A stretch of 64,000 nucleotides of DNA from Liolophura sinensis (Eukaryota; Mollusca; Polyplacophora; Chitonida; Chitonidae), in contig NC_088304.1 of the NCBI RefSeq assembly GCF_032854445.1, positions 8,073,704-8,137,703 on the forward strand. The letters run 5' to 3'. Positions 6,600 through 56,189 of the stretch are shown in pieces; position 1 is the first letter of the stretch, and each line of letters opens with the position of its first letter. The notes under the pieces were generated by a model. It was not told the origin of the DNA and made no database searches. It was given only the letters and a program-made list of their open reading frames with translations. The position numbers and the translations under genes were made by a program.

Positions 6600-9500
6600 G
6601 TACATATAACGGTTTCAGAAATCAGCCTACTGCAATGTTATACGCCTGCCCTACCAAAAAGGGTTTACTCGAGTGTGCATACGATTTAGGCCAACTTCAT
6701 GTTCAGAAGTAAATGTCTCCTCGCCTATCTTCAGAACAATGTAAAATAAACAAAAGAGATGAAGAAACCGGTGCGGGTGGAAGACCTCATTGGTCACTCC
6801 GTTAGTGTCGCAAGTGGTCACACTTGCGACACTAACGGAGTTCAATTTTTGTGTTAAAATGTTCCCAGAAATAAACATTAGTGTTCGACCTGTGAGAAAC
6901 AGAGGAAAGTGTCTTTTGTAGTAAACTTTTGCATTATATTTATCATTCGTTTACAATTATTACTTTGTCATAATATCTGTCATATTTGCTGGTTGAAATT
7001 TTGCAATAAAGTAAATCTATTATAAATACTGTTTTGATTGTGGCCTAAAGTTATTTTGAGGTCGGTACACTATAAGCTGAAATGTCTACAATTGTCTGTC
7101 TACAATAATTCCTTCGTGTGTATTTTCTTCAGATGAGGCAGGTGTGTCTCTGGTCGGTGTGCACTACAGCATTAACAAGCCCATCCGGAATGTGGAAGCA
7201 GGGACATTCAACTATGACGTCAACTCAAAGACAGGTTCGTGCAGGAGTTATTCAATAACTGACAAACTATAACCACACGCTATCTACTTGTTTTTTTTTT
7301 TTTGTTTTTTTTTTATTGGTGTTTTACGCCGTACTCAAGAATATTTCACTTATACCACGGCGGCCAGCATTATGGTGGGTGGAAACCGGGCAGAGCCCGG
7401 GGGAAACCCACGACCATCCGCAGGTTACTGACAGACCTTCCCACGTACGGCCGGAGAGGAAGGCAGCATGAGCTGGTCTTGAACTCACAGCGCTAGCGCG
7501 CTAACCGACTGAGCCACGGAGGCCCCCTATCTACTTGTACCTGTACCTTTATATCTGAATGATATTTGCGTGTAACAGGGTGTTCATATAGAATTTCGTG
7601 GTCAACAGGAGATCTCAATCTCAATCCATAGGCTACCTAAAACTTTACAAGTTTGAATAAATAACATCAGTGCATAATTAATTTGAATCACATGCATGCA
7701 CGTGGCGTCGGTAACTGTGAAATCCGCCTCCACGAATGGATCCCAACCCTCTAATCTCTTCTAGCTAGCATGACTTCTCAGGTTCTTAGAAAGGAGCGGG
7801 CATTTTCCTCATGATATTCCTCTTTTCTCGGAGACTGTTAAATGAAGGCAGTACCTTTCAATATGGCGTAAACAAATTTTGGGGGTTTCCTAAAAGAAAT
7901 GTTATAACCAAAAGGAAATATCCGTCAAACGAGGTAATACAGAATGAAAGTTAAAAAAGATTAAGAGAAAATAATATCTTTGTAGAAAATACGCCAAAAT
8001 CAATAGGGCCTATCGTTATTTGTTATCTCTCAATTTTAACACCTCGTAAACTCAAAAGACCGATGGTTTTCCGGATGCAATTTTTCTGCAACAGATATTA
8101 TACATCCAAATGTACATCCTTATAGGAAAAATCCAAATGTACAGTCTTAAAGGATACATCAAAATGTACAGCCTTATAGGATACATCCAGCTGTACAGCC
8201 TTAAATGATACATGAAAAGCAACGCTAAAGCATAGTTTTAACGGATACATTCAACTGTACAATTTAAAGGATACACTTAAGGTACAACCTTAAAGGATGC
8301 ATGAAAAGGAACAACCTTAAGGGATGCATGAAAAGGAACAGCCTTAAAGGAAGCAAGAAAAGGAACAGACTTAAAGGATACATGAAAAGTGACCATAAAA
8401 CACAATCTTAAAGGATGGTTTAAAAGGTACCCTGTATCTCAGCCTTAAATGATACATGAAAATGAAACTCTGTAATGAAAATTTTGGTTTTCATAAAGGG
8501 AAATGAAGAAAGCTGTGCCAAAAACATGGACAGTTATTACCGTTGACGTCACGACTGCAGGCTACTTCAGTTCTAGACTAATCGCAGGAGCCTTGGGAAA
8601 TGTTGAGCGCCAAAAAGAAAGCTGAGAAAGTTTGCTGTACTTTTGAATCCTAGAACGCATTCTTACGTAGCTATTAGGATATATAAACCAAACGAAGTAC
8701 AAATAAAAAATCAGCATCAAACATCAATACAATTTTGATTTTGTCATTTTGTTTTCTTACATTTGACAGGAAGTTTCTGGGTTCATGAAAACCGTCAAGT
8801 TGTCCTGTCTCCAGGGGACAAAGTCTACTACTGGGTGTACTGGGTGAAGGAAGGGAGAGGTGAACAGTTGCTGAATCAGGTGTGGACAGGTGAGCTTATC
8901 TCTAGGGGACAAAATCTGGGTGTACAGGTGAAGGAGGGGAGAGGTGAACAGTTATTGGATCAGGTGTGGACAGATGAGCTTATCTCCAAGGGACTGTCTG
9001 AGTGTACGGGTGACGGAAGGGAGAGGTGAACAGTTACTAGACCAGGTGTGGACAAGAGCTTATCCCCATGGAACAAAGTCTTGTTGTACAGGATGAGGTT
9101 AGGATCGAAGAAAACAAATTTACTACAGAAGTGAAATGAAAATATTATTATGGACTTGGGTTTTTCTTTCAGCCTATTTTTACCTTAGGTAAAATCATTG
9201 TGCATATGAGAAAATTAGAATGTCATGTTGATAGGCTTTGTATGTAGAGAGCTGTGACATCTTTACAAGGTAAATCAAGCCGAGTTTTGTGAAGTTATTT
9301 GTTTGCAAACTTTCGTGTTTGGACAGTTCCTTCAAGGTATTTGTTTTCAACCTTATATAGGCCTATGTGTTCATTTCCTTGAAATCATTTGTTTGCAATC
9401 TCTGATATGTGTGCAGTTCATTGAAGTTATTTGTTTGCAAACTTTTTTATGTGCGCAGTTCCGTCAGATTAATTATTTGGAAACTTTTATATTTTCGTAG

Positions 9501-12500
9501 TTCCTTCGGAAGTCACCCAGAAACCAGTGACGTCATCGGGATCGGCATTTACCAAGAAGCCGGAAGTCGTGTCGGTACATGTTAACCAACCGATACCGGG
9601 TATGTCAAAGTAAATATACATGCTAAGCTGTAGGATCTCTTGAGGCGTAAAAATGCGTAATAAAACCCTATATCGATCTGTCACTGCAATTTATATATGT
9701 AGGCCTACACCCTCAGTTGGTGTAAAAAGCAGCATTGTTCATGTAGTGTATAGCTACGCTAGCCAGGCCTCTGCATGTCTTGGAGAACATTGGTTATAAT
9801 GGAGGACTCCCTGTATTTCATTAGATAGGACAAGTAGCTGTGGACATACATGTACCAACAATACATGTTGTTCGCGGAGCAGAGGTTCAATCCCAGCCTT
9901 GGTCAGGGAATCCTTGAGAATCCCCTTTCCTCTGCCTTGGCTGCCTTTGTGGCAGTACCCACAGGAAGGTCTCTGCATGGAGATCAAAGACCTTAAACTC
10001 TATCTACCAGTTAAAATCTGTATCTAAAACGTGGGAATGTCAGTCGGTTACATGCAAATGGCCGGTAGTTTACCACAGTACTGTATCCAACACCCATATG
10101 ACGTCTGCTTGCATATAACGGAAAAATCTTAAGCCTGGCTTTAAACCTCATTTAATTAAGCACAAAAAAGGAATAAATATTACCTGTGGTCACTTGTTTA
10201 ATTGTTTTCCTGGATTTGACCTGGAACTCATTCATGGACTTCGAATTTGAACTTCGATATGGAATTCATGCCTGGAATATCCACTGTCTGCCCGGCATCA
10301 TTGAAAACTGATAACCGTTTCTGTCTTGTGTGTTACCGGCTTTATTTCCTATTTGTATAATTTCTTACATACCTTTGTCTTTGGGAGCTAGTGTTAAACG
10401 TTGTTTTGGAAATGGATCTTGCAATTATTCGACTTGGAATGTCCTTTACGGACTACCAATGGTATATGAATGTCGGACTTGACGCTTATATTCAGACTTT
10501 TCTTTGACACTATTAACGTTCTGAAGTTATTAAGTTATTAAAGCTCTGCTGTATGATGTAAATCCCGTTTGCCGATGTCGCTGTGTTTTGTTTTCGTGTT
10601 GCTGTAGCCTTATATAGCGCCTCTGATTCTGATCCTGGTACAGTCGCGCACTGCTCCTCGTATCCCTGTGTCATCTTCCGGGACGACTTCGACAGCTTTG
10701 ACCTGGCCACCTGGCAACACGAGATCACTGCAGGAGGCGGCGGGGTAAGTTAGTGTGTATGCAATCTGAGATCACTGCGGGGGCCGGTTGGGCAAGCTAA
10801 GTGTAGACAACACAAGATCACTGTAGGAGGCAGCTGGGTAAGTTAAGTGTAGGCAACATGAGATCACTCCGGGATGCGGCGGGGTAAGTTAACTGTGGGC
10901 ATAATACGAACACTGCGCAAGGGGAGTGGGGTGGGGTGCAGCGGGATAAGTCAAGAGTAGGCAACATGAGAACACTGCAGGAGGTATCGGGGTAAGTTAG
11001 TGTTCGTACTTTGAGAACACTGCGAGAGTCAGCGGTATTAGTTAAATGTAGGCAACATGAGAACAGGCAGGGGTGTGATGCTGTGTTCCCACGAAATGCG
11101 ATTGCATTTGTTATTATTAATTTAATTTAATTTAATGCTTTATTTATTTATAGAGGATTGCCCACAGCCAGTGGCCACGAGGGGTTTTCCTCAACAAGAT
11201 TATTTACATTTAATTACAACATTTGAAAATGATATTTTGAATATAATATCTGCTAACTTACAATTATATAGTAATAAAATAGAATGAAGTGACATAAGCG
11301 CAAGAATTAAGCCTTACAGATATTCACAATAAAAAATTTGACCGTTTACAGATTAAACAGTTAAACCTTGGAATAAATTGGACGAAATAAAAAGTATTAT
11401 CTGCATAAATAAATGTACCTGTACATACATGCATACTAGCATATTGAGTAAAATACAATACCAATTGCGAACATCATTTGTATTAATGGCTGAATCCATC
11501 TTATTCGTCTGTCAACATAAAATCACTCAGGGGAAGGGGAGGAATGGTACCATATTATAGCATATCCGATGTTTATTTAAATTTTTTTTTAAATATGTTG
11601 CATTTTCATGAAAACTAAGTTACTTCGATGTTATCACATTTCTCACCGTGCATTATATATAGGCTACTTGTGTATTTTTTGTCTTCCGATCCATACCAGC
11701 CGACATGTCTGCTTTGTACCGCGTGTTTACATGTATAACTGGGAAATGTCTTCGGTTGTAGCACCACATGTGCCGTGTTGTCGCGAACACAAAAGACATT
11801 AGCATAGACAGTGCGAAGATTATCTAATGGTCACACGTCATCAATAAAGTCCGACCTCTTTTAAGTTTATCTCATTTAGGGTTTTATTCCGGCTGTTTGT
11901 GTAAATGTTTAAAAGATAGCAGATTGCAGGCCCCGGGTATTATTATTATAACTTTCAGCAATTGTTCCTTGTTTATTTTACAGAACTGGGAGTTCCAGTT
12001 TTACACCAACAACAGAAGTAACAGTTATGTTCGGGATGGAACTCTTTACATAAAACCTGTAAGCTTGGTTATCTACTCATTGAGTTTTGATTTATTTCCA
12101 GTCGTCACCAATTCATTTTGTCCTTCTTTAATACGGATAAGAGGTGTCCTGCTTATTGGAAAAACAGAAATCCTAGCAAGATAATATGTACATGTATTTT
12201 TAATTTATTTTCATTAATATTAATTTGATTTATTTTAAAATATTTGATTAGAGTTTTACTTATGCGCCGGTGGCAATTTTCATTAAAAATTATGTAAGTA
12301 AATATAAGATGGGCTTTCCACGCCCTGCATATCATTTGTAAAATGCTGAATGGCGATGGTTTACTTTGGTTCTTAACATCCTCCACCAATGAAAATGATG
12401 GAAGCCTTAGATAGATAAATAAATACTTATAAAATGTTGTTTCCTCAGACCTTGACGGCTGACAAGTATGGAGAAGCCTTCCTGTCTTCCGGGACGCTTG

Positions 12501-15500
12501 ACCTCTGGGGTAAGATTCACCTGGGGTCTTCTTCCTTTATAGTGTTTGTTGTACTGCAGTATAAATAGGATGGTGTTTACACTGCAAATGATTCCAAAAT
12601 ATTTTGAGTTTTGGGACTCAACGGTATGAATATCAGATTGTATATTCATATAGGCCAAACGGATAACTGATTCACATTAAAAAAGCGATGGATTTGAGGA
12701 AAAATACATTATTAAACTCTTTCAGCTGTGGACCAGTCTGGCGAATGTTCCACACTCTTAGTACACGCTTCATTCTCCTGTCACACGGCAGCTTCGCTCC
12801 AGTCTGTACAAAGACATGCCGTCATTTTAGAACACAGTCCCAAATTGTGGTAATACATTATTCAAATGATATATTACCCAGATTAGGTGCTTATGTCCTT
12901 TGTTTAACGAACACAACTATACAGAAACACTGACGTTCCATTAACAAAGTTTGACATATCACACATGAAGCCTGATGTATCACACTGAAGGTCTGACGTG
13001 TACCAAGCAGATAGCCTGATATATACCATACACAAAGTCGGACATATGACAGAGGAAGTCAGACGTGTAACATGTATAATACAGAAAGCTTGACGTATCA
13101 CACAGGGAGTCAGACGTTTTACACAGAAAGTCAGACGTATAAGACAGAAATTCTGACGTATCACACAGACAGTAAGTCTGGCGTATCACACAGAATGTCT
13201 GACGTACATGTGTATAACATGTATAACGCAGAAAGCCTGACGTTTGACAAGGAAGGCAGATATAACAGGCGAAGCCTGATAAATCACACTGAAGGCCTGA
13301 CGTATACCATACAGAAAGTCTGACATATGCAATACAGAATGCCTGATAGACACCATACACAAAGTCTGATGTATACGCTAGAGAAAGCCTGACATATGCC
13401 ACACAGAATGCCTGATATATGCCATAAACAAAGTCTGGTGTATACAGCACAGAAAGCCTGACATATACCACGCAGAATGCCTGATATACCATACACAAAG
13501 TCTGATATATCACACACAAAGCCTGCTGAAAGCCTGACGTATCACACAGAAAGTCAGACATATCACACAGAAAGTCTGACATATCACACAAAATGTCAGA
13601 TGTATCACACAGAAATCCTGACTTATCAGGATAGAAAGCCTCAGCACAATCCGACTACAGCCTGCACATCACGTATGTCTCTAAGGCAGGCACTTCTCTC
13701 TGGGATTGTCATTGTGTGTAACCGCCGTCAAAATTAGATGTGCATACAGAAATAAAAATGAAGGATGTTGATAAGAAGTTGAGAAAGGCAGTTGTTTCTT
13801 CTGGCAGATTTAAGTCAGCAAATTTGTCAGGACAGAGGCAGTTGTTTGTTCTGGCAGATTTAAGTCAGCAGTTTTGTCAGAAGAGAGGCAGTTGTTTGCT
13901 CTGGCAGATTTAAGTCAGCAGGTTTGTCAGAAGAGAGGCAGTTGTTTGTTCCGGCAGATTTAAGTCAACAGACTTGTCAGAAGAGAGGCAGTTGTTTGTT
14001 CTGGCAGATTTAAGTCAACAGATTTGTCAGAAGATAGGCAGTTGTTTGTTCAAGCAGATTTAAGTCAGCAGATTTGTCAGAAGAGAGGCTGTTGTTTGTT
14101 CTGACATATTTAAGTCAGTGGATTTGTCAAAAGAGAGGCAGTTGTTTGTTCTGGTAGCTTTAAGTCAGCAGGTTAGTCAGGAGAGAGGCAGTTGTTTGTT
14201 CTGGCAGATTTAAGTCAGCAGATTGTCAGGAGAGAGGCAGTTGTTTGTTCTGGTAGCTTTAAGTCAGCAGATTTGTCAGGTATATGGCGAGAGGCAGTTG
14301 TTTGTTCTGGCAGATTTAAGTCAGCAGAATTGTCAGGAGAGCGGCAGTTGTTTGTTCTGGTAGCTTTAAGTCAGCAAATTTGTCAGGAGAAAGGCAGTTG
14401 TTTGTTCTGGCAGATTTAAGTCAGCAGGTTTGTCAGGAGAGATGCAGTTGTTTGCTTTAAGTCCGCAAGTTTGTCAGAGGAGAGGCAGTTATTCTGGCAG
14501 ATTTAAGTCAGCAGGTTTGTCAGAAGAGAGACAGTTGTTTGTTCTGACAGCTTTAAGTCAAAATATTTTTCCACCTTTGGAGAGTCACTTGTTATTTGCT
14601 CCTTGATTCTTTCACCATTAAAACCTGACTGTTAAGAGAATAAGTCAATCGCTTACATGTAAAACAGCGTAGATTCAGAATGGATGTGGGACTGGTATAG
14701 AATACCCACTGTGTATAAGGGTCAGTACACACAAAGCGTATGATATCTAAAACCACTGACTGGATAATTCGGTAAATTATTCAACCAACAAATGATTGTT
14801 TTATAAAGGAGGCTGTACGAATAACCAGTGGTACGGGTGTGAACGACGCGGTACAGCGCAAAACTACATCAACCCCATACAGTCTGCGCGCCTGCGCACC
14901 AAAGACAGCTTCAGCTTCCGTTACGGCCGGCTAGAGGTCGAAGCCAAGATGCCGACTGGAGATTGGATATGGCCTGGTGAGTAGCTTTTGTAAAGATAAT
15001 ATCTCAGATTACAGATCGGGAATTGTATATAGCCTTGTGAGTGGTTGTTGTAAGTTTGACATCTCAGATTACAGACCGGGTATTGGATATGGCATAGTAT
15101 GTAGTTGTTGTGAAGATAATATCTCAGACCGGGAATTGTAAGTATGTAAGTATCATAAGTTGTAAGTATGATATCTCAGATTACAGACCGGGTATAGGAT
15201 ATGGCATAGTGTGTAGTTGTTGTGAAGATAATATCTCAAACCACAGACCGGGTATTGTATATGGCCAAGTGAGTGAGTGTTTTACTGATGATATCTCAGA
15301 TTACTGACTGGGGATTGGATATGTGGTGTTAAGCGGTTGTTACAAAGATGATATCTCAGATTACAGACCGGGTATTGTATATGTCCAAGTGAGTGACTGT
15401 TTTAATGATGATATCTCAGATAACTGACCGGGGATTGGATATGTCGTGTTGAGTGGTTGTTACAAAGATGATGTCTCAGATTACAGACCGGGTATTGTAT

Positions 15501-18500
15501 ATGGCCAAGTGAGTGATTGTTTTAATGATGATATCTCAGATTACTGACCGGGGATTGGATATGTCGTGTTGAGTGGTTGTTACAAAGATGATATCTCAGA
15601 TTACTGACCGGGTATTGTATATGGCCAAGTGAGTGATTGTTTTAATGATGATATCTCAGATTACTGACCGGGGATTGGATATGTCGTGTTGAGTGGTTGT
15701 TACAAAGATGATATCTCAGACTGCAGACCGGGTATTGTATATGGCCAAGTGAGTGATTGTTTTAATGATGATATCTCAGATTACTGACCAGGGATTGGAT
15801 ATTTCATGTTGAGTGATTGTTACAAAGATGATATCTCAGATTACAGACTGGGTATTGTATATGGCCAAGTGAGTGATTGTTTTAATGATGATATCTCAGA
15901 TTACTGACCGGGGATTGGATATGTCGCGTTGAGTGGTTGTTACAAAGATGATATCTCAGATTACTGACTGGGTATTGTATATGGCCAAGTGAGTGATTGT
16001 TTTAATGATGATATCTCAGATTACTGACCGGGGATTGGATATGTCGTGTTGAGTGGTTGTTACAAAGATGATATCTCAGATTACAGACCGGGTATTGTAT
16101 ATGTCCAAGTGAGTGACTGTTTTAATGATGATATCTCAGATTACTGACCGGGGATTGGATATGTCATTTTGAGTGGTTGTTATAAAGATGATATCTCAGA
16201 TTACAGACCGGGTATTGTATATGGCCAAGTGAGTGATTGTTTTAATGATGATATCTCAGATTACTGACCGGGGATTGGATATGTCGTTTTGAGTGGTTGT
16301 TATAAAGATGATATCTCAGATTACAGACCGGGTATTGTATATGGCCAAGTGAGTGATTGTTTTAATGATGATATCTCAGATTACTGACCAGGGATTGGAT
16401 ATTTCATGTTGAGTGATTGTTACAAAGATGATATCTCAGATTACAGACTGGGTATTGTATATGGCCAAGTGAGTGATTGTTTTAATGATGATATCTCAGA
16501 TTACTGACAGGGGATTGGATATGTCGCGTTGAGTGGTTGTTATAAAGATGATATCTCAGATTACTGACCGGGTATTGTATATGGCCAAGTGAGTGATTGT
16601 TTTAATGATGATATCTCAGATTACTGACCGGGGATTGGATGTTTCATGTTGAGTGATTGTTACAAAGATGATATCTCAGATTACAGACTGGGTATTGTAT
16701 ATGGCCAAGTGAGTGATTGTTTTAATGATGATATCTCAGATTACTGACCGGGGATTGGATATGTCGCATTGAGTGGTTGTTACAAAGATGATATCTCAGA
16801 TTACTGACCGGGTATTGTATATGGCCAAGTGAGTGATTGTTTTAATGATGATATCTCAGATTACTGACCGGGGATTGGATATGTCATTTTGAGTGGTTGT
16901 TATAAAGATGATATCTCAGATTACAGACCGGGTATTGTATATGGCCAAGTGAGTGATTGTTTTAATGATGATATCTCAGATTACTGACCGGGGATTGGAT
17001 ATGTCGTGTTGAGTGGTTGTTACAAAGATGATATCTCAGATTACTGACCGGGTATTGTATATGGCCAAGTGAGTGACTGTTTTAATGATGATATCTCAGA
17101 TTACTGACCGGGGATTGGATATGTCATTTTGAGTGGTTGTTACAAAGATGATATCTCAGATTACAGACCGGGTATTGTATATGGCCAAGTGAGTGATTGT
17201 TTTAATGATGATATCTCAGATTACTGACCGGGGATTGGATATGTCGTGTTGAGTGGTTGTTACAAAGATGATATCTCAGATTACAGACCGGGTATTGTAT
17301 ATGGCCAAGTGAGTGATTGTTTTAATGATGATATCTCAGATTACTGACCAGGGATTGGATATTTCATGTTGAGTGATTGTTACAAAGATGATATCTCAGA
17401 TTACAGACTGGGTATTGTATATGGCCAAGTGAGTGATTGTTTTAATGATGATATCTCAGATTACTGACCGGGGATTGGATGTGTCGCGTTGAGTGGTTGT
17501 TACAAAGATGATATCTCAGATTACTGACTGGGTATTGTATATGGCCAAGTGAGTGATTGTTTTAATGATGATATCTCAGATTACTGACCGGGGATTGGAT
17601 GTTTCATGTTGAGTGATTGTTACAAAGATGATATCTCAGATTACAGACTGGGTATTGTATATGGCCAAGTGAGTGATTGTTTTAATGATGATATCTCAGA
17701 TTACTGACCGGGGATTGGATATGTCGCGTTGAGTGATTGTTACAAAGATGATATCTCAGATTACAGACTGGGTATTGTATATGGCCAAGTGAGTGATTGT
17801 TTTAATGATGATATCTCAGATTACTGACCGGGGATTGGATATGTCGCGTTGAGTGGTTGTTACAAAGATGATATCTCAGATTACTGACTGGGTATTGTAT
17901 ATGGCCAAGTGAGTGATTGTTTTAATGATGATATCTCAGATTACTGACCGGGGATTGGATGTTTCATGTTGAGTGATTGTTACAAAGATGATATCTCAGA
18001 TTACAGACTGGGTATTGTATATGGCCAAGTGAGTGATTGTTTTAATGATGATATCTCAGATTACTGACCGGGGATTGGATATGTCGCGTTGAGTGGTTGT
18101 TACAAAGATGATATCTCAGATTACTGACCGGGTATTGTATATGGCCAAGTGAGTGATTGTTTTAATGATGATATCTCAGATAACTGACCGGGGATTGGAT
18201 ATGTCGTGTTGAGTGGTTGTTACAAAGATGATGTCTCAGATTACAGACCGGGTATTGTATATGGCCAAGTGAGTGATTGTTTTAATGATGATATCTCAGA
18301 TTACTGACCGGGGATTGGATATGTCGTGTTGAGTGGTTGTTACAAAGATGATATCTCAGATTACTGACCGGGTATTGTATATGGCCAAGTGAGTGATTGT
18401 TTTAATGATGATATCTCAGATTACTGACCGGGGATTGGATATGTCGTGTTGAGTGGTTGTTACAAAGATGATATCTCAGACTGCAGACCGGGTATTGTAT

Positions 18501-29985: not shown

Positions 29986-30052
29986 CCAGGTCAAAAAGCA
30001 ATGTTTAGCAAGAAATAATGTGTAACTAAAACAACCTGCAATGTTCGGGCGT

Positions 30053-30058
30053 AATAAA
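30053..30058 (+). terminator. LGBP: Polyadenylation signal aataaa of LGBP
   Basis: A canonical aataaa lies 68 bases after the stop codon. A t/g-rich stretch (gagcttgtttgtactcagtc) follows at about 30078, typical of a downstream element. Confidence 0.75.
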
Positions 30059-31563: not shown

Positions 31564-31656
31564 TCACCTTTCTGTGCTATTTGCAGTCTGTGATGTCACA
31601 GAGAACTCCTCCTGAACAGTGTACTTCTCCACGTAGTGAACAATCTCGAAGAAAAC
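31564..31656 (-). CDS. RMND1: RMND1 coding exon 10 and stop
   Basis: Encodes [20 protein letters not shown] then [10 protein letters not shown] and tga (31566-31564). It continues the C-terminal hydrophobic anchor. Acceptor ttcag. It has no counterpart in the second copy. Confidence 0.88.
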   Translation of the reverse strand, partial: VFFEIVHYVEKYTVQEEFSVTSQTANSTER

Positions 31657-34600
31657 CTGAACAAAACACATATGTAGTCTATTTAAGATTTATAGAATGC
31701 CTTATATTCCTTCGTATATGCAAAAGCGGTACTGTTTGAGAACAGAGGAAATCTGGCAGAGCTCTGGGGAACACTGCAGTTTGTTGGTCGAGGCAACCTG
31801 GCAGAGCTCTGGGGAACAATACCATTTGTACGTAGAGGAACCCTGACAGGGCTGTAGGGAACACTGCTGTTTGTGAATAGAGGAAATCTGGCAGAGCTCT
31901 GGGGAAAATGCAGTTTGTGAACAGAGCAAATCTGGAACAGCTTAGGGGAACACTGCAGCATGTGAATAGAGGAAATTTGGCAGAGTTCTGGGGAACACAG
32001 CAGTTTGTGGGTAGAGTAAACCTAACAGAGATGTAGGGAACACCGCTGTTTGTGGGTAGAGTAAACCTAATAGAGACGTGGGGAACACCGCTGTTTGTGG
32101 GTAAAGGAAACATGACAGAACTCTGAGGAGCACTGCAGTTTGTGGGCAGAGGAAAGCTAACAAAGCTCTGAGGAACACCGCGGTTTGTGGGTAGAGGAAA
32201 GCTGACAGAGCTCTGGGGAACACTGCTGTTTGAGGGTAGAGGAAGCCTGACAGAGCTCTGGGGAACACTGTTGTTTGTGGGTAGAGAAAACCTGACAGAG
32301 CTCTGAGGAACACTACTGTTTGTGGGTAGAGGAGACATGACAGAGCTCTGAGGAACAATGCTGTTTGAGGGTAAAGGAAACCTTACAGAGCTCTGGGGAA
32401 CACTGTTGTTTGAGGGTAGAGAAAACCTGACAGAGGTCTGAGGAACACTGCTATTTGTGGGTAGAGGAAACATGACACAGCTCTGGGGGAACACTACTCT
32501 TTGTGGTTAGAAGGAACCTGACAGAGCTCTGGGGAGCATTACAGTTTGTGGGTAGAAGAAAGCTGACACAGCTCTGACGAACACTGCAGTTTGTGGGTTG
32601 AGGAAACCTGACACAGCTCTGGGGAGCATTGCAGTTTGTAGGTAGAGGAAACTTGACAGAGCTCTGGGAAACACTGCTGTTTGTGGGTAGAGGAAAATTC
32701 ACACAGATCTGAGAAGTAGCTACTGCTGTTTGGCAGGCAGTTTCTCTTACCTCAACCATGATCAGCAGTATGATCATCCACTCCAGTCTGATGTGATGAT
32801 TGTCATTCAGGTGGGAGATCAGTAGTTCTGTCAGTTCACAACAATGGTTTAACTTTTCGTTCATCACCTGTAACAAAAGCACTCAGTAGAAATCAACAGT
32901 TCTGTCAGTTCACAGCAATGGTTTAACTTTTCGTTCATCACCTGTAACAGAAGCACTCAGTAGAGATCAACAGTTCTGTCAGTTCACAGCCATGGTTTAA
33001 CTTCTCGTTCATCACCTGTAACAAAAACACTCAGTAGGAATCAACAGTTCTGTCAGTTCACAGCCATGGTTTAACTTCTCATTCATCACCTGTAACAGAA
33101 GCACCCAGCAGAGATCAACAGTTCTGTCAGTTCACAGCAATGGTATAACTTTTCATTCATCACCTGTAACAGAAGCACTCAGCAGAGATCAACAGTTCTG
33201 TCAGTTCACAGCAATGGTATAACTTTTCATTCATCACCTGTAACAGAAGCACTCAGTAGAGATCAACAGTTCTGTCAGTCCACAGCAATGGTATAACTTT
33301 TCATTCATCACCTGTTACAGAAACACTCAGCAGAGATCAACAGTTCTGTCAGTTCACAGCAATGGTACAACTTCTAATTCATCAACTGAATAACAAATGA
33401 AGATGTTCTATATTTTTGCCACTAGTACTTGATTGGATAATGAACTTGATACAAATATACATGAGTTATTGAGTCAGGTGGTTTTGCTATTTCTGTCTGT
33501 TGGATTGAGCCATGTGTCCATAAAGCTACCTGTATAATATGAGACCTGTCTGACTTCAAGATTTTTCAAGAGAAACTTGTAAAATGACATAACAGTGGGC
33601 AATTTTTTCCATTATCAAACTCTGAAGAGGCAAAATTTGGTTGAGAATGTGACAGGTTGGATAAAAATTAAGCTGTATTAGTAAATTGTTCAGGATGTCA
33701 ATAAATTTTGATTGCCTTTTGAAGCCCAACTTCCACTCTACCTTTGCAATCTTGTATATATACCACATACACCTGATGATAGAAGTCTCTAATGGAAGCT
33801 TTTCTGTGTTTTTTGTTGTTTTGTTCATCACTATAAACACTGAGTACATGTTAACAACTCCTCACCTTTGTCCTCTTGGGAATGTTCAGGTAGACAAAAG
33901 CCTGTTGGTACAATGTCTCCAGTTGTTCTCTGTCCCAGTAAAAGTCTGGAGGGTCCAGCAAATCTGAGCTCAAGTTGATCAAATGTCTGCAGAAAACGAG
34001 CACTGAACTGAGTATATATTAAGGATAAACAATCTACATTTTAATAATATTTCCAAAAGACCAATAAAAAACAAATAAAGTTTATAAAATCTTGCCAAGG
34101 AAAGATCACAATAAATTCTGATTTCCCCAATCACGAGTCTGTCAACGTATACAGATATAAGAGAACCTGTTGAACATGAGCGGAACACTAACCTCAAAGT
34201 GAACAGCTCTCCAGTTTTCTGAAGCACCTCTTGTTTTGTCATTTTGATTCTCCTGCCAACCTTCATATCCTGAATGAGGAAACGTAAAGAAATCATTCCA
34301 CAAAGCTTTCTAACTATAAATACAAGTAAGCGCAATATTATAGGCAACATTTCCTCTGGTACCTGATGACAAAGGGGTATAAGGGAGACTTAAAGGAGGA
34401 GACATTTGTTCAGGTACCTGATGACAAAGGGGTATAAGGGTTACCTAAAGGAAGAGACATTTGTTCTGGTACCTGATGACAAAGGGGTATAAGGGTGAAC
34501 TGAAGGAGGAGAAATTTATTCTGGTACCTGATGGCAAAGGGGTATAGGGGTGAACAGAAGGAATAGACATTTGTTCTGGTACCTGATGACAAAGGGGTAT

Positions 34601-37600
34601 GAGGGTGACCTGAAGGTAGGAGACATTTGTTCTGGTACCTGATGACAAAGGGGTATAAGGGTGACCTGAAGAAGGAGACATTTGTTCTGCTACCTGATGG
34701 CAAAGGGGTATGAGGGTGACCTGAAGGAGGAGACATTTTTTCTGGTACCTGATGACAAAGGGTTACAAGTGTGAACTGAAGGAGAAGACACTTGTTCTGC
34801 TACCTGATGGCAAAGGGGTATGAGGGTGACCTGAAGGAGGAAACATTTGTTCTGGTACCTGATGACAAAGGGGTATAAGGGTGACCTGAAGGAGGAGACA
34901 TTTGTTCTGGTACCTGATGACAAAGGGGTATGAGGGTGACCTGAAGGAGGAGACATTTGTTCTGGTACCTGATGACAAAAGGGTATAAGAGTCACCTGAA
35001 GAAGGCAACACTTGCACACACACTGATGTCATAGAGGTAAAGGGGAAAATGCAAGTTCTAAGTTCCCTGTTTATAAATGTGTGGTTCAAAATACATCATT
35101 TTAACACTTAAACTAACCGCAAAATCCAATTTATTGCACGGATATATTTAAGAAACGACACTGACCATCGGAAGCTAATAGGCTTTTGCATGACAACCAA
35201 TTATCATGTGACGCTTTGAGCGCTAGTGATTGGCCAAGTTCATAAGGGCTGCTACACCTTGGCTGTTTGGAGTGAATTGTCCATCAGTGCCATATCTCCA
35301 ATGCTTCAACTTCATCTTCTCGGCTTTCAAAACTTTGGAGAATTTTTTTACATATTTTTCTCTGATAACTTTGTCATATATCATTTTTTCTATGTGGATA
35401 TAGTGGTACACTTTGTGTTCACTTTAAAGTCCAAAGCAACAACCACATCTTGCTATATAAATATATGTATATATATATATACACGTATACATACATGTAC
35501 AGAAAAATGACTGACTGACATGTACATATATAAACCCGTCATTCTAATGTGTTTTACAATGTATATGCAGCTCTATGACTTATTATTATGAAATCACCTC
35601 CAGAACAGGTTCTATGGACTCCACAAATTTATCCAAGGAAGCCTCCCAAATGCCCAGCTTGACAGACAGCGAGAGAGCGTTGGAGAATGCATATTTGACG
35701 AGGGTGGTCTGAGCAGAGCTCTCTTCTGTATCAACATCCTGACGCTCCTGAATGTGAATAGTGCCAGATGTGAGACTGGGAGCCTTTCTGAAAACACAAG
35801 CACTTTCTCAAAAACAAACACAAGGACTCTATGAAAACAAACAGCGGCTACCTAGCCAGCACAGCACTAGAATTCAGGAGCCTATTATTATTTGTGGTCG
35901 GTGAGAGTTCTAGTCCAGCTCATAAGTGGAAGGTCTGTCAGCAGCCTGCAGATGGTCATGGGTTTCCCCCCGGGCTCTGTCAGGTTTTTCCCCCACCATA
36001 ATGGTGGCCACCGTCGTGTAAGTGAAATATTCTTGACAATGGCGTAAAGACCCAAATAAATAAATAAATATATAAATAAGTACACCAATTCTTCAACCTC
36101 TTGGCATATGAAAGAGCAACTTTCAGTGCAATTTATGCATGTTTATAATTACATTTTGGAGAGAAAATGACATTGGCTGGATTGGCCAATTTCAGGGCTT
36201 CACAAAAAGTATGATTTTATCAGTCTCCACAGAATAATCCCCCCCCCCACCACACACAGAATAAGCTTGAACAATCACCCTGCAAATCACCCTAGGCAAG
36301 CACTTTCTCAAACCAAATACAAGCACTTTCTCGAAACAATCACGAGCACTTTCTGAGATGAACAAATGATACGTGGAAATATACATTAGTTGCACAATTT
36401 TGTTATCCTTAAATCATTTTCAACCTTCATCAAAGGTATCTTCAAACTCACATGAAACATATAAAAACAATGGATTTATGGCACCTTTATAGCTGCAGTA
36501 TTTTAACAATACTGTGTTGACACTATAAAGACATATAGGTGTCGGCACTAACTACAGCACTAATTAATGACTTTCCAATCATGTTCTTGGGTGAAAGCTG
36601 AATAAAAAATAGTAATGCTACTATGTATAGACATCATGATTGGTAATGCTACTATGTATAGACATGACGACTGGTAATGCTACTATGTATAGACATGATG
36701 ACTGGTAATGTTACTATGTATAGACATCATGATTGGTAATGCTACTATGTATAGACATGACGACTGGTAATGCTACTGTGCATAGACATCAAAACTGCTA
36801 GTGTTACTCGCTGTATAAACATCATGACTGGTAATGTTACTATCTGTGTACCATGACCGGTAATGTTAATGTATAGATATCATCAATAAATGTTACTCAC
36901 TGTGTAAACATCATAACTAACAACGTTAGTAACTGTATCACAGTTGGTAACGTTACTAAATGTGTATCATGACTGATAATGTTACTGTATAATGTTACTC
37001 AATGTATAGACATCATGACAGGTAGTGTTACAAACTGTATAGACATCATGACAGGTAATGTTACACACTGTATAGACATCATGACTGGTAATGTTACACA
37101 CTGTATAGGCATCATGACTGGTAGTGTTACAAACTGTATAGACATCATGACAGGTAATGTTACACACTGTACAGACATCATGACTGGTAATGTTACACAC
37201 TGTATAGACATCATGACTGGTAGTGTTACAAATTGTATAGACATCATGACAGGTAGTGTTACAAACTGTATAGACATCAAGACAGGTAATGTTTCTCAGG
37301 CATCATGACTGATAATGTTACTCACTGTGTATAGACAAAGTCCATCTTCTCCAATTCATGCTCTATCAGACTTACACTATACACATTCTCTGAGAACTTC
37401 TCAACAAATTTCAGCACTTCAGCTCTCTGTTAAAAGAAAAGACCATTTTAGTTTTATACCAAAAAACACACATAAATAGTTTTCCATATCGCTTTACTGG
37501 ACTTCACCTCAAACAACATGCATCTTGAAGGTGTCCATGCATATAGTTTACAAATTAGAACAGCATATTCACACAAAGAATTTCTTTGAATAAAAAAGAC

Positions 37601-40600
37601 TGTCACATGGACATGTATAATTGTTAAACCTAACTAAATTTAGAGAGCAATTCCCAAGATTCTAATAACTTATCATATTCAAAAAGACAAGTAGCATAAA
37701 TAGATCTTTGACAAAACAGATAAAAAAACGGAGAGAAGAATTCTTCACTCCTACGATAGAGACAAGTTCAAGTTTATGGATAAAGGAAACCTTTATTAAC
37801 AGAGCCTGAAGCAAACCATTGTTATTCTCCAGGCTCATGTCTCTGACAAACCTCCTGACTTCACCCGTCACCTCAATGGTCAGGGGACCGGCCCGGATAG
37901 CACAGTTGGTAGAGCGTCCGCTTCGGGACCGGTAGATCCAGGATCAATCCTTGGTCGAGTCACACCTAAGACTTTAAAAGAGGAAGTTGTAACTTCCTCG
38001 TTTGGCGTTCAGCATGAAGGGGATAGTGCAACGACTGGTTGACCCGTTTCAGTATAATGGCTCGGGCGGGGCGGCTTACTTGCCTTCGGTAAGTCGTCTC
38101 AGTGATGCAGCACTAAATAAAAGAGCGGTGAAAATCCGTCCTGCAACAAGGAGGCACATTACACGTGCATGCACCCTAATGATTCCTTCGTCGTCATATG
38201 ACTGAAAAATTGTTGAGTACGACGTTAAACCCCAAGCACTCACTCACTCACTCAATGGTCAGGGGCTGAGATCAGCCAGTGACTCCATTAGTATGGGGCC
38301 GAGATCAGCCAGTGACCCCATTGGTCAGGGGCCGAGATCAGCCAGTGACTCCACAGGTATGGGGCCCGAGATCAGCCATCAAACCCACTTATCTGGGGCA
38401 GAGTTCAGCCACTGACCCCATTGGGCCACAGAAGAACAATTCAGCTGTGTGAACCAGCAATACCTCTATAACATTATAAGACCCAACATCTGATAATATC
38501 AAAGTAATGTATCAACAAACTCCTACTTCTGTCTCTGGCATGTTCCAAAACACTGCACAGCCCTCCCTGAAACAAAGTGGGAAAGATTATGGTGAGAAAG
38601 ATTAGAAAAACAAACACCATGGCCTATGGATATTTACAGGTGTTTGGTTCAAACTTTATTACTCAAAACTGGGGCAACCATGATACAAAGAAAATGCTCT
38701 GGCGGGGTTAACTTACCTGTCCATCTAGTTGAGTCACTTACTAGATTTACCTTCAATGTAGGAAGAGTGATGGTCAGGTTTTTACATGTAAAACCAAATG
38801 TAGGAATACAAGAAAGTCTGGATTGATGTTTAATGGGTATAGTTTTAAGATATACTTACTGATCTCATTGGTGTTTTATTCTGTGCACAAGAAACCACTA
38901 TCTTGTGGCTTTATTAAGACTCAAACTCATTATCTACACAGACATATATGACCTATCTAGTACCAGGTACATAATTTTGTGTTTGAAACAGTCAGTGCTT
39001 CCAAAGCAACTTTATCCTTTCATGAAGTGTTTTGTTTATATTCGCTGTGATAACACTACATTTACCTGAAGAAGAAGACTTCACGCTGTGTTTCATCCAC
39101 CTTGTATTTGGCACACACATACAGGGCATTCTCCACATCTGAAGATAAAAACACCTTTCTGTTCAATATTATTTCTTTTTACAGCAATAACTGGATATGC
39201 AATATGTGCATTATAATTTTTACATCATAATCCAGACTTTTCTGCTGCAAAACAACAGTAAGATTTATTAATGAAGGTACCCTAATTACTCACATTATGC
39301 ATGTTTTTAAAATCATACAGGAGACAAAACTACATCGGTTGAACTGGCTGATTTCAGGGCTTCACAAAAAGTACAACTTTATCAGTCTACACAAAGTAAT
39401 GCCCCCAGAATTTGCTTGAATAAACACCTTCGAAACATGTAAAAAGTTTGAAGGTAATAAAGGTAACAATGAAATTAGGCTTGGGCACGCAAAAATGATC
39501 TTTAACTACTATGGCAGCACAAGTTAAAAACATAATCTGAAACGACTGCTCTGAGGAAGAGACCGCTGGACGAATCTGAATTACGTGCCAAACATTGCTG
39601 GGACCAAGATGGTGAGACACAAATACGTGAGTTAATTGATCAAGGCCTGGTTTCTGTTTACTATGAACATATTTTATTGTGCTGAACAAAGGGATTGGGA
39701 AAAGGTCTGGCTTGGGATGTAATACCCAGCAATTCCCATCAAACCCACAGCTGTCATGGTCAAGTTGATGGACATTCACAGGAAAGGTTAAATATGTATG
39801 TACATGTACATGTAACCGTATGCTTGGGATTTCATATCATACTTAAACAATTTTTCAGTTATATGGTCACGAGGTTTTTGTACATATAGGCTGTGCCCTC
39901 TGGTGACAGGACAAGTCCATGTGCTGCTACCACTGATATATCCTGCCAAAGACACCAGACACCCTACCCAGTCACATTATACTAACACCCGGCCAACCAC
40001 TCCTGTTTCCTTGCTCTAAACTCTCAGTGCTGAGTTCCAAGTGAATTTCTACATCTTTATATCCCAACTGAAATTGGAGGAATCATTTGTATTACATACA
40101 TTTGTATTAAAACACTAGAGAGAATCTGTCAACACCTAACCTTCAGGCAGACTTAAGGGGAGACAGAGGCCCTAACGTTCTAAAACACTGTAGGGAAAGT
40201 GTTAACACCTAACTGTCAAACAGATTTGAGACAAAATAAAGGCCCTGCTGTTCTAAAATACTGTAGAGAAGGTGTTTACACCTAACCTTCAGTCAGGCTT
40301 GAGCCAAAACAGTTGGGCGGCTGTTCTAAAACACTACAGAGAAAGTGTTAATGTCTAACCTTCGGGCAGACTTGAGATGAGATAGAGGTCCTGTTGTTCT
40401 AAAACACTGTAGAACAAGTGTTAACACTTAACCTTCAGGCACACTTGAGATGAGATAGAGGCCCTACTGTTTTAAAAAACTGTAGAAAAAGTGTTACCAC
40501 CTAACCTTCGGGCAGAATTGAGACGAAATAGAGGTCCTGCTGTTCTAAAACACTGTAGAACAAGTGTTACCACCTAACCTTCGGGTAGACTTGAGACGAG

Positions 40601-42512
40601 ATAGAGGCCCTGCTGTTCTAAAACACTGTAGAAAAAGTATTACCACCTAGCCTTCGGGCAGACTTGAGACGAGATAGAGGTCCTGCTGTTCTAAATCACT
40701 GTAGAAAAAGTGTTAACACCTAACCTTCCGGCACACTTGAGATGAGACAGAGGAACTGCTGTTCTAAAAAACTGTAGAAAAAGTGTTAACACCTAACCTT
40801 CGGACAGATTTGAGACGAGATAGAGTGAGTGCTTGGGGTTTAACGTCGTACTCAACAACTGAGACGAGATAGAGGCCCTACTGTTTTAAAAAACTGTAGA
40901 AAAAGTGTTAACACCTAACCTTCGGGCAGGCTTGAGACGAGATAGAGGTCCTGCTGTTCTAAAACACTGTAGAAAAAGTGTTACCACCTAACCTTCGGGC
41001 AGACTTGAGACGAGATAGAGGCCCTCCTGTTCTAAAACACTGTAGAAAAAGTGTTAACACCTAACCTTTGGGCAGACTTGAGACGAGATAGAGGTCCTGC
41101 TGTTCAAAAACACTGTAGAAAAAGTGTTAACACCTAACCTTCGGGCAGACTTGAGACGAGATAGAGGTCCTCCTGTTCTAAAACACTGTAGAAAAAGTGT
41201 TAACACCTAACCTTCGGGCAGACTTGAGACGAGACAGAGGCCCGCCTGTTCTAAAACACTGTAGAAAAAGTGTTAACACCTAACCTTCGGGCAGACTTGA
41301 GATGAGATAGAGGCCCTCCTGTTCTAAAACACTGTAGAAAAAGTGTTACCACCTAACCTTCGGGCAAACTTGAGATGAGATAGAGGCCCTGCTGTTCTAA
41401 ATCACTGTAGAAAAAGTGTTAACACCTAACCTTCGGGCAGACTTGAGACGAGATAGAGGCCCTGCTGTTCTAATGCTGTGCTCAAATCTTCCAGGTGATA
41501 CTCCTCTGATGTGGCATAAGCTGTCACCTCATACACTTGGTCCTGACAAAACAAACAGAATTCAGGACTTTTGTCAAGACACAGTTTATTCAACTGGTAC
41601 ACTTCTGATGAACTCCTTGGCAACCCCCAAATGAACAACAGGCATTTTCACCTAAAGTTTGGTATATAAAAATGCATTTTTTGCAGCACACAAAGGTCTT
41701 AAAATGATAATTTTGACATCAGCACTTAAGTTTTGCTGATAAGAAATTAACCTAACTTTACAAAAAAAATATTAAGCAGCCATGTAATGAATCAATTAGA
41801 ATCAGGCAAAATGGTTAACTTGAAAAATCTTAAACTTTAGGTGAAAATAAAGTAATAGGTCTACATGATAATTGTCAACACACACACAAAATGCATAAAA
41901 CCAGCCTCACTATCTAGAGATTTTAAATGCCATATTACTCAGATTAATAAACTGTTTATAAATATTTTTCACACTCACCTTAACAGTATATACAGGGGTA
42001 GTTAATTATGTATATATAATAAATCTAGATACTAATCTTTTAGCAATAATTAATCCTCATTTAACTCTACAGAATCTCTTAGTGCCACTGACATACATGG
42101 TTAACACCTAGAGCTCACAGTTAAAATGTGCAATAAATAAGAGTGACTTGTGGCAGCGCTTCACTGACTTCTACAGACAAAACCTAACAACAAATACCTT
42201 GTCCCTAGATCTTGACACAGCCACTTTCTTCTTAGCGGGTCTCTTTGCTATCACAGCTTGTACATTTTTCTGTATGCTGTTTGCTATGGGAGGGGCGAAT
42301 AACTCTGTTGTGGAGTTGAAAAGCCTTACACACCCAACAGAAATCCGAGTCTGTAGAAATGGTTCCGAAGCTCTCAGTAAACCGTTTCCAGCATTTTCAG
42401 TCCGTGTATAACAAGACCCAAACCGACATATATTTGTATATAATGGTGGACGATATATGCAGGCTTTTAGCCATAGCCTTGCTGGCTTTATCAACGTCTG
42501 AAGCGGCTTCAT
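31564..42512 (-). CDS. RMND1: RMND1, mitochondrial DUF155 protein (complete copy)
   Basis: Ten coding exons join in phase to 412 codons plus stop: 42198-42512, 41431-41542, 39066-39138, 38527-38566, 37326-37426, 35598-35787, 34193-34269, 33866-33986, 32751-32867, 31564-31656 (read downward). The N-terminus is basic, as expected of a mitochondrial presequence. DUF155 spans about residues 107-390 with [12 protein letters not shown] (164-175), [20 protein letters not shown] (246-265), PPDFYWDRE and, at 370-392, a hydrophobic [18 protein letters not shown] anchor. Known: RMND1 sits in the inner mitochondrial membrane and supports mitochondrial translation; human length is about 449. The start at 42512 is the only ATG opening this frame in its exon. 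A second copy lies at 48583-61383. The gene is convergent with LGBP. Confidence 0.95.
31735..32700. repeat. 45-bp minisatellite in RMND1 intron 9, about 21 copies
   Basis: The unit includes agagctctggggaacactg and tttgtgggtagagg. The word gctctg or gctgta recurs at 31761, 31806 and 31851, a 45-bp period. As a multiple of three it yields spurious long minus frames (31679-32494 and others). Confidence 0.93.
32751..32867 (-). CDS. RMND1: RMND1 coding exon 9
   Basis: Encodes [20 protein letters not shown] and [19 protein letters not shown]. Acceptor gttacag, donor gag/gtaaga; phase 0 to 0. Its 5' half and acceptor are repeated in intron 8. Confidence 0.94.
32825..33385. repeat. 74-bp array made from the RMND1 exon 9 acceptor junction, about 8 copies
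   Basis: On the minus strand each unit reads ctgttacag/gtgatgaacg, then aaaagttaaaccattg, tgaactgacagaactg, that is about 44 bases of exon 9 plus its acceptor. The word gttctgtcag recurs at 32825, 32899 and 32973, a 74-bp period. The exon itself is the first unit. Confidence 0.95.
33866..33986 (-). CDS. RMND1: RMND1 coding exon 8
   Basis: Encodes [20 protein letters not shown], then [20 protein letters not shown]. Acceptor ctgcag, donor aaag/gtgagg; phase 2 to 0. Confidence 0.95.
34193..34269 (-). CDS. RMND1: RMND1 coding exon 7
   Basis: Encodes [18 protein letters not shown] then TGELFTL and the first two bases of Arg. Acceptor attcag, donor gag/gttagt; 77 bases, phase 0 to 2. The second copy has 74 bases here. 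Confidence 0.94.
34360..35005. repeat. 55-bp minisatellite in RMND1 intron 6, about 12 copies
   Basis: The unit includes acctgatgacaaaggggtat, aagggtgacctgaaggagg and agacatttgttctggt. It contains no exon sequence that I can see. The second gene copy has about 64 units at the same place (50410-53925). Confidence 0.95.
35598..35787 (-). CDS. RMND1: RMND1 coding exon 6
   Basis: Encodes [40 protein letters not shown] and [20 protein letters not shown]. The [20 protein letters not shown] block is diagnostic of RMND1. Acceptor tttcag, donor gag/gtgatt; phase 2 to 0. An overlapping 69-codon frame is a shadow. Confidence 0.96.
35896..36075 (+). mobile_element. SINE family 1, partial, in RMND1 intron 5
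   Basis: Body from gttctagtccagctcataag through gatggtcatgggtttcccc to a tail aatattcttgacaatggcgt aaag and (aaat)n. The second copy (54812-54958) has the same element with an internal deletion. Confidence 0.85.
36600..37325. repeat. 33-bp array derived from the RMND1 exon 5 donor junction
   Basis: On the minus strand the unit reads gtctatacagtgtgtaacat then taccagtcatgat. The real junction reads gtctatacaca/gtgagtaaca then ttatcagtcatgat. The period is 33 bp (tatagacatc at 37038 and 37071). The 36600-36980 part is degenerate. As a multiple of three, it gives spurious frames. Confidence 0.9.
37326..37426 (-). CDS. RMND1: RMND1 coding exon 5
   Basis: Encodes [33 protein letters not shown] and two bases of Gln. 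Acceptor taacag, donor acaca/gtgagt; phase 0 to 2. Spliced directly after exon 4, its length matches vertebrate RMND1. Confidence 0.93.
37791..37871 (-). other. Candidate cassette exon between RMND1 exons 4 and 5
   Basis: An 81-base open segment (27 codons: [27 protein letters not shown]) is bounded by attgag/gtgacg and aag/gtttcc, phase 0 to 0, so it could be included without a frameshift. Its first half resembles exon 5 ([14 protein letters not shown] versus [13 protein letters not shown]). Vertebrate RMND1 as I recall it has no such insert. It may be a duplicated alternative exon or a relic; the second copy keeps it open (56655-56735). Confidence 0.35.
37887..38250 (+). mobile_element. SINE family 2, full-length, with target-site duplication
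   Basis: 364 bases. tRNA-like head cggatagcacagttggtaga then gcgtccgcttcgggac and a B-box-like gatccaggatcaatcc. An unrelated body follows, then ttgttgagtacgacgttaaa, ccccaagca and (ctca)n. A perfect 15-bp duplication ctcaatggtcagggg flanks it (37872-37886, 38251-38265). The second gene copy has the empty site at about 56734-56750. The 67-codon frame inside is not a gene. Confidence 0.95.
38256..38425. repeat. 38-bp tandem repeat in RMND1 intron 4
   Basis: Variants of ggggccgagatcagccagtg acyccattggt recur about four times; the counterpart at 56740-56945 has one more unit. Confidence 0.85.
38527..38566 (-). CDS. RMND1: RMND1 coding exon 4
   Basis: A 40-base exon encoding [13 protein letters not shown] after a split Arg, completing the FFFREGxAVFWN motif. 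Acceptor tttcag, donor gaa/gtagga; phase 2 to 0. Confidence 0.93.
39066..39138 (-). CDS. RMND1: RMND1 coding exon 3
   Basis: Encodes [20 protein letters not shown] then FFF, with split codons at both ends (Asp, Arg). Acceptor cttcag, donor ttcag/gtaaat; phase 1 to 2. Confidence 0.94.
40105..41480. repeat. 73-bp array made from the RMND1 exon 2 donor junction, about 18 copies
   Basis: On the minus strand each unit carries about 47 bases of exon 2 (agaacagcagggcctctatc, tcgtctcaagtctgcccgaag), the donor gttaggtg and 26 bases of intron ending ctttttctacag. So each unit has both a donor and an acceptor-like end. The period is 73 bp (40921, 40994, 41067). A piece of SINE family 2 tail (about 40823-40857) interrupts it. 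Confidence 0.95.
41431..41542 (-). CDS. RMND1: RMND1 coding exon 2
   Basis: Encodes [20 protein letters not shown] then [17 protein letters not shown]. It matches the EYHL...L region that opens DUF155. Acceptor tgtcag, donor cgaag/gttagg; phase 0 to 1. Confidence 0.94.
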
Positions 42513-48560: not shown

Positions 48561-48582
48561 GTTTGGCAGGCAGTTCTCTTAC

Positions 48583-48700
48583 CTCAACCATGATCAGCAG
48601 TATGATCATCCACTCCAGTCTGATGTGGATGATTGTCATTCAGGTGGGAGATCAGTAGTTCTGTCAGTTCACAACAATGGTTTAACTTCTCGTTCATCAC
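48583..48700 (-). pseudogene. RMND1: RMND1 copy 2, exon 9 (one-base insertion)
   Basis: 118 bases against 117 in copy 1. The extra base lies in the His-His-Ile region (catcc instead of catc), shifting frame before the membrane anchor. Confidence 0.85.
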
Positions 48701-49430
48701 CTGTAACAAAAGCACTCAGTAGAATTATCAGTTCTGTCAGTTCACAACCATGGTTTAACTTCTCGTTAATCACCTGTAACAAAAACACTCCGCAGAGATT
48801 AACAGTTCTGTCAGTTCACAGCCATGGTTTAACTTCTTGTTCATCACCTGTAACAGAAGCACTCAGTAGAAATCAACAGTTCTGTCAGTTCACAACAATG
48901 GTTTAACTTTTCGTTCATCACCTGTAACAAAAACACTCAGTGAAAATCAACAGTTCTGTCAGTTCACAGCCATGGTTTGACTTCTCGTTCATCACCTGTA
49001 ACAGAAGCACTCAGTAGAGATCAACAGTTTCTGTCAGTCCACAGCAATTGGTATAACTTTTCATTCATCACCTGTAACAGAAGCACTCAGTAGAGATCAA
49101 AAGTTCTGTCAGTTCACAGCCATGGTTTAACTTCTCGTCATCACCTGTAACAAAAACACTCCATAGAGATCAACAGTTCTGTCAGTTCACAGCCGTTGTT
49201 TAACTTCTCATTCATCACCTGTAACAGAAACACTCAGCAGAGATCAACAGTTCTGTCAGTCCACAGCAATGGTATAACTTTTCATTCATCACCTGTAACA
49301 GAAGCACTCAGCAGAGATCAACAGTTCTGTCAGTCCACAGCAATGGTATAACTTTTCATTCATCACCTGTAACAGAAACACTCAGTAGAGATCAACAGTT
49401 CTGTCAGTTCACAGCAATGTATAACTTCTC
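48640..49430. repeat. 74-bp exon 9 acceptor array, second copy, about 11 units
   Basis: Same unit as at 32825-33385, with about three more copies. Each keeps ctgttacag/gtgatgaa on the minus strand. Confidence 0.93.
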
Positions 49431-50324: not shown

Positions 50325-50409
50325 CTGAATGAGGAAATGTAAAGAAATCATTCCACAAAGCTTTCTAACTATAAATACATGCAGGCACAGTATTATAGGC
50401 AACAATTTC

Positions 50410-56185: not shown

Positions 56186-56189
56186 TCAC

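Follow-up and report, generated by a model that had tools for sequence, protein, structure and literature searches.

The window analysed here is a stretch of 64,000 nucleotides from the genome of the chiton Liolophura sinensis (C10:8073704-8137703), whose assembly comprises 609,464,459 bases in 632 contigs. The paper describing the assembly used the name Liolophura japonica (PMC11068029), and a correction changed it to L. sinensis (PMC12441733). The window holds the gene LGBP and two copies of the gene RMND1. LGBP lies on the forward strand, with 13 coding exons at 6491-29985; all of its junctions are GT/AG, its exons join in one open frame, and its product carries CBM39 and GH16 domains (Pfam). 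The first RMND1 copy, RMND1-A, lies on the reverse strand, with 10 exons at 42512-31564, a complete reading frame and the domain PF02582 (Pfam). This 10-exon model replaced an early one in which an array copy had been read as the start of exon 9.

The second copy, RMND1-B, was found beyond RMND1-A at 47600-61400, with the gene itself at about 61.4-48.6 kb. Identity between the two copies was 97.1-98.6% across five unique stretches. RMND1-B carries single-base indels in exon 7 (three), exon 8 and exon 9, and no match to exon 10 was detected within the window. Two readings fit this copy: a tandem duplicate in decay, or a haplotype that was left uncollapsed and has errors in homopolymers.

Two further features were noted in introns. 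LGBP intron 1 contains a perfect inverted repeat at 6797-6840, with 20-base arms (6797-6816 and 6821-6840) and a 4-base loop. RMND1 intron 4 contains, at 37872-38265, an element of ~364 bp (37887-38250) that is flanked by two CTCAATGGTCAGGGG copies, adjoins a 33-bp array and resembles a SINE insertion with a target-site duplication.

Searches of the whole assembly gave some results that concern its content. A GH16 profile search of the chiton's own genome returned no match, despite the presence of LGBP in the window; thus, the absence of a family match in such an own-genome search is uninformative. The mitochondrial gene order matches the order in chitons and in other molluscs with the ancestral arrangement. 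With the bacterial genetic code, ARAGORN detected no tRNA in the mitochondrial contig. Contig C99 contained seven cox1 matches at a spacing of ~15.5 kb and probably represents tandem copies of the mitochondrial genome, that is, an assembly concatemer.

Tandem arrays across the splice junctions of LGBP and RMND1

We aligned the 40 terminal exon bases at each of the 42 junctions of LGBP and RMND1-A (21 introns) to the adjoining intron (at most 3 kb) and compared the scores with 120 shuffles per junction. Strong copies of the exon edge were detected for the RMND1-A exon 2 donor (39 of 40 bases identical, z 20.6), the RMND1-A exon 9 acceptor (39 of 40, z 20.0), the LGBP exon 3 donor (36 of 40, z 18.8) and the LGBP exon 5 donor (28 matches across 32 exon positions, z 13.1). 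A moderate case was the donor of LGBP exon 8 (17 matches across 18 positions, z 4.2), with an array that starts 23 bases into the exon. These five clear cases, four donors and one acceptor, were also the only ones among the 42 junctions where an array reported by TRF included at least six exon bases (23, 32, 43, 53 and 59 bases), and both types of boundary are therefore affected. Their units measured 46-120 bp.

In LGBP, on the forward strand, the last 59 bases of coding exon 3 (8770..8889) form the first unit of an 82-84 bp array (8831..9092). A 46 bp array (10713..10901) spans the donor of exon 5 (10608-10744), and a 60/120 bp array of ~7.7 kb (14954..22617) spans the donor of exon 8 (14809-14976). 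In RMND1-A, on the reverse strand, a 73 bp array (40108..41473; TRF blocks 40108-40825 and 40860-41473) spans the donor of exon 2 (41542-41431), and a 74 bp array (32815..33388) spans the acceptor of exon 9 (32867-32751), with 53 exon bases inside. In all five clear cases, the outermost unit was the junction demanded by the reading frame; the sequence-only reading had likewise placed the real junction in the first or last unit.

That reading had derived seven arrays from junctions. Five of them stand, their arrays taking in 23-59 exon bases; the other two, at LGBP exon 4 and RMND1 exon 5, are at chance level on exon sequence alone, with 7-10 exon bases. The 42 bp array (9364..9504, forward strand) that precedes the acceptor of LGBP exon 4 (exon from 9501) matched seven exon bases, which is not above the shuffle level (z -0.2), and the 31-33 bp array (36612..37324, reverse strand) after the RMND1-A exon 5 donor (37426-37326) matched ten, again not above that level (z 1.2). 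By eye, the last units of both arrays run in register across the splice site, and these arrays are perhaps old or shallow cases. Among the remaining 35 junctions of the window the top z was 2.7, in agreement with the earlier remark that its other arrays contain no recognisable exon sequence.

RMND1-B carries counterparts, on the reverse strand, of the arrays at the exon 2 donor (58639..60344), the exon 9 acceptor (48648..49442) and exon 5 (55562..56201, several TRF rows; the RMND1-B exon 5 end is at 56190). Array size differed between RMND1-A and RMND1-B, which may be haplotypes or paralogs, and it did so for junction arrays (17 versus 21 located copies at the exon 2 donor, seven versus 10 at the exon 9 acceptor) and for another array alike (12 versus 64 units of a 55-bp array, TRF).

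That the arrays are an artefact of assembly or a chance similarity is extremely improbable, and we disfavour this reading. The HiFi reads had a mean length of 8,347 bases at 14x coverage (PMC11068029), which makes the copy number of the 7.7 kb array uncertain, and RMND1-B could be a haplotype that was left uncollapsed. The opposing evidence consists of the z values of 13-21 relative to shuffles at four junctions, and of the independent examples on several contigs that are described below.

Splice-site copies within the arrays

The integrity of the splice-site copies varied between arrays. In RMND1-A intron 2, the donor GT was kept in 16 of the 17 located copies, 13 of which match the nine bases of the real site exactly; in intron 8, the acceptor AG was kept in all seven. 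The values for RMND1-B were 19 of 21 for the GT and 10 of 10 for the AG. In LGBP, the GT was kept in all three located copies of intron 5, in just 29 of 75 in intron 8, and was lost in the one copy located in intron 3. The nine bases alone therefore do not distinguish the real RMND1 donor from most of its copies.

Some units of RMND1 intron 2 have the make-up of a pseudo-exon, in which a TACAG that resembles an acceptor precedes 47 exon-like bases and a donor. Complete units of this kind numbered 11 in RMND1-A, 10 of which have an in-frame stop when read after exon 2, and 12 in RMND1-B, all with a stop. These units, and the GT or AG retained by most RMND1 decoys, are what would be expected if the arrays were regulatory, with intact decoys, some of them complete stop-bearing pseudo-exons, slowing or diverting splicing in the manner of a poison-exon array. 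The loss of the GT from the one located copy of LGBP intron 3 and from most located copies of LGBP intron 8, however, indicates that decoys are not generally kept, and the RMND1 decoys may owe their intact sites to recent homogenisation. A regulatory role is therefore very unlikely. The likeliest explanation for the tolerance of the RMND1 decoys is that exons are recognised as units.

The presence of many splice-like sites in tandem also recalls intron gain through tandem duplication of exon sequence containing AGGT, and the arrays could then mark recently gained introns. This mechanism has been demonstrated in vivo, as cited in a review (PMC3443670), and in the globins of amphioxus it has been proposed to arise from mirages, which are junction-spanning arrays described in that animal (PMC3087553). 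In intron gain as presented in that review, an exonic AGGT becomes both the donor and the acceptor of the new intron; the likeness to the chiton arrays lies in the multiplication of splice-like sites by tandem duplication, whereas the chiton copies sit in an existing intron and resemble one of its ends. For each of the five clear cases in the window, the junction at the other end of the intron carried no significant copy of its own exon edge, and the two intron ends gave no sign of descent from one duplicated exonic segment. We consider recent intron gain highly improbable as the source of these arrays.

Junction arrays in 35 kinesin and myosin loci

We estimated the incidence of junction arrays in genes not chosen for them. 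Genome profile searches yielded 81 exon matches for Myosin_head and 132 for Kinesin. The sample comprised 35 match clusters (22 kinesin, 13 myosin) with 227,834 bases and 145 of the 213 matches; the loci were picked for compactness before their repeats were viewed, which biases the sample to short introns. Splice models resolved 52 introns and failed for 18, and unresolved edges were taken as the ends of HMM matches, which may err by at least 10 bases (12 in L028, 24 in L008). Edges at the end of a Pfam domain were dropped from the counts, except for the L025 donor, which was added by hand since a GTAAGA donor follows. The resulting 277 edges are 278 minus one exon-like copy inside the L025 array, and five of them were corrected by hand.

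TRF reported 73 arrays with a period of at least 20, which together cover 18% of the sampled bases. The test on exon sequence alone, run without a splice model, gave z >15 at eight of 288 testable edges; two of these are L028 copies of one exon, two belong to a single array in L025, and the one in L024 was due to a match that extended into the intron. When the sequences were read, 12 of the 277 edges lay inside an array with the splice site in register, five of them with at least 20 exon bases. There were eight donors (L025, L032, L035, L026, L028, L024 and two in L038) and four acceptors (L030, L006, L021 and L031). The pattern thus extends beyond the window, to genes that were picked blind to their repeats.

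Unit lengths in the sample ranged from 31 to 140 bp, the L025 array being listed at 219 bp, a multiple of 73. The 73-bp unit of this kinesin gene holds 54 exon bases and the donor, and at least 22 of its 26 copies, read in place, keep the GT. The 95-bp unit of the myosin gene L030 holds 48 exon bases behind the acceptor, and just ~6 exon bases are in the array of L024. Several candidates were rejected. The L028 stretches 595-700 and 1691-1787 were excluded as two copies of one exon; L020 (z 7.9) and L037 (z 5.6) were not counted because TRF shows no array at those edges; and L008 and L034 were near misses with arrays that stop short of the exon.

Three observations were made on individual loci of the sample. 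The two L028 stretches encode the same myosin exon twice (query 118-152 and 121-152), in the manner of mutually exclusive exons. At L025:7600-7731, a kinesin exon copy of >100 bases lies inside the far end of the exon's own donor array, and its placement suggests an origin by gene conversion or by a further duplication. In the myosin paralogs L030 (acceptor 1053) and L032 (donor 500; both in transcript-strand coordinates), the intron positions at the homologous NPLLEAFG site differ by a single base, and each gene has a junction array there, at the acceptor and the donor, respectively; this is possibly a case of intron sliding through junction arrays.

The sequence-only reading had proposed that splice junctions may be preferred seeds of tandem duplication through a sequence, R-loop or repair property of the site; in such a model, nascent RNA, an R-loop, bound U1 or local breakage would make duplication start there. 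We compared the counts with the number of edges that randomly placed seeds, each as long as the unit of its array, would straddle, with arrays collapsed to one unit. Among arrays with at least 20 exon bases, the sample contained four (five after hand correction) versus 3.8-5.3 expected (P 0.33-0.61 for five), that is, no excess. Among those with at least six exon bases, it contained 11 (12 corrected) versus 5.2-6.7 expected (P 0.007-0.04 for 12), which leaves a mild excess possible. In the window, which was picked for the feature, five arrays at 42 junctions compare with 1.3-1.7 expected at the 20-base threshold (P 0.012-0.028) and with 1.9-2.3 at the six-base threshold (P 0.046-0.081). The window also differed from the sample at the 20-base threshold (5/42 versus 5/277, Fisher P 0.005) and, at the six-base threshold, gave 5/42 versus 12/277 (P 0.057).

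Array coverage in the sample was 14.4% at 300 bases into the intron, 11.5% at 100 bases and 5.5% at five bases (13/235); on the exon side, it was 4.5% at five bases (13/290) and 2.1% at 20 bases. The profile took all 290 match ends without edge corrections, and exonic coverage is thus, if anything, too high. Coverage falls toward junctions, and it is nearly unchanged across the splice site, which argues that splice sites are no barrier to arrays. No array with a period of at least 20 lay wholly within the sampled exons, versus 6.0-6.6 expected (P 0.0025 for 6.0). The absence of arrays within exons, combined with a near-random rate of junction-spanning ones, points to purifying selection inside exons and tolerance at their edges. 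The profile and the counts together indicate that arrays are removed inside exons, are thinner nearby and cross the splice site nearly freely.

The positions of array ends gave a mixed picture. Summed over the tabulated outer 120 exon bases, 12 ends were observed versus ~12 predicted from the intronic rate. Between seven and 20 bases into the exon, a range chosen post hoc, there were six versus 1.4 from the intronic rate (P 0.004), and eight of the 12 junction arrays of the sample end 6-21 bases into the exon. A preference for the last 20 exon bases is possibly real but small. Such ends could be pinned at 6-21 bases by a splice-site footprint, with spliceosome-bound nascent RNA or breakage setting the start of the duplication. 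We regard this as quite unlikely; if true, the footprint would make these arrays a transcription-linked class of mutation that recurs in distant animals.

A motif test was applied to the genome, in which three AGGTAAGT donors at a spacing of 23-53 bp were searched for, with the reversed motif as control; copies that have diverged, and donors of other types, escape this test. The triple AGGTAAGT matched 551 windows versus 395 for the reversed motif. Among the first 100 matches listed, all on C1, the numbers of distinct arrays, counted by hand, were 16 for AGGTAAGT (to 93.4 Mb) and 17 for the reversed motif (to 90.4 Mb), although AGGTAAGT was the commoner of the two in the gene-rich sequence examined (21 versus 4). 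We took this as no clear enrichment of AGGTAAGT arrays.

Preferred seeding thus finds some agreement in the counts at the six-base threshold, the cluster of array ends 7-20 bases into exons, the counts in the window and the matched windows of the motif test. The counts at the 20-base threshold, the sum of array ends over 120 exon bases, a junction coverage below that of deeper intron and the numbers of distinct motif arrays speak against it, and we consider it rather unlikely.

Origin of the arrays and their known counterparts

The reading that we prefer is that these arrays are junction-spanning minisatellites (mirages) with a near-random birth, which are tolerated at junctions since the outermost copy keeps the exon intact, and we hold it to be probably correct. 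A piece of ~30-140 bases would be duplicated in tandem at a nearly random place in a minisatellite-rich genome, by slippage, unequal exchange or repair synthesis. Where the piece straddled an exon edge, the outermost copy would retain the intact exon end and the splice site; the protein would then be unchanged, and the duplication could survive as if it were intronic. The array would subsequently grow and shrink like any other, leaving many copies of the splice site in the intron; the size differences between RMND1-A and RMND1-B, seen in junction arrays and in another array alike, fit this view. Splicing presumably takes place at the exon-proximal copy, as a real exon would be recognised whole, together with the acceptor and donor that flank it.

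Arrays of this kind are already described as mirages in amphioxus (PMC3087553, PMC3902484), although it is understandable that the sequence-only reading knew of no description. In these reports, mirages are tandem arrays across a 5' or 3' exon-intron boundary with exon bases included, and they occur in Adh3, the globins BflGb6 and BflGb9, troponin C, PGBD5 and other loci. Their units measure ~10-160 bp, regular splicing is unaffected, and their length is unstable between alleles or tissues. The chiton arrays likewise span the boundary with exon bases included (five of the seven window cases, 12 of the 277 sample edges), affect both boundary types (four donors and one acceptor in the window, eight and four in the sample) and have unit lengths within the amphioxus range. 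The differences are that the host is a mollusc, that incidence was estimated over 277 exon edges, and that the chiton arrays are known from DNA, whereas splicing in amphioxus was followed by RT-PCR.

Other systems are less similar. In human segmental duplications, variable internal tandem repeats occur at exon-intron boundaries (PMC2812944). They resemble the chiton arrays as minisatellites at such boundaries and can alter splicing structure; unlike the chiton arrays, they were studied for the way in which they change the structure of recently duplicated genes, and about half of them lie in coding sequence. Intronic minisatellites are reported from abalone TSSK1 (PMC6905558) and minisatellite-like intronic repeats from an earthworm metallothionein gene (PMC12783039), and the accessible portions of both reports describe no junction-spanning arrays. 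The C. elegans intronic minisatellites linked to alternative splicing (PMC4039745) are, in the accessible portion of that report, not junction-spanning units. Within the open-licence literature, which misses most subscription journals, we found no earlier report of mirages from a mollusc. What is new here is the occurrence of mirages in a mollusc together with an estimate of their incidence; the kind itself is known.

When genes with such arrays are annotated, it should be borne in mind that intronic units resembling an exon can be called as exons in error. Mirages also provide a natural experiment on how splicing picks one site among many near-identical ones. They had been thought to be possibly a general habit of cephalochordates (PMC3087553). 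Their presence at ~4% of the sampled chiton exon edges suggests that mirages follow minisatellite load rather than lineage.
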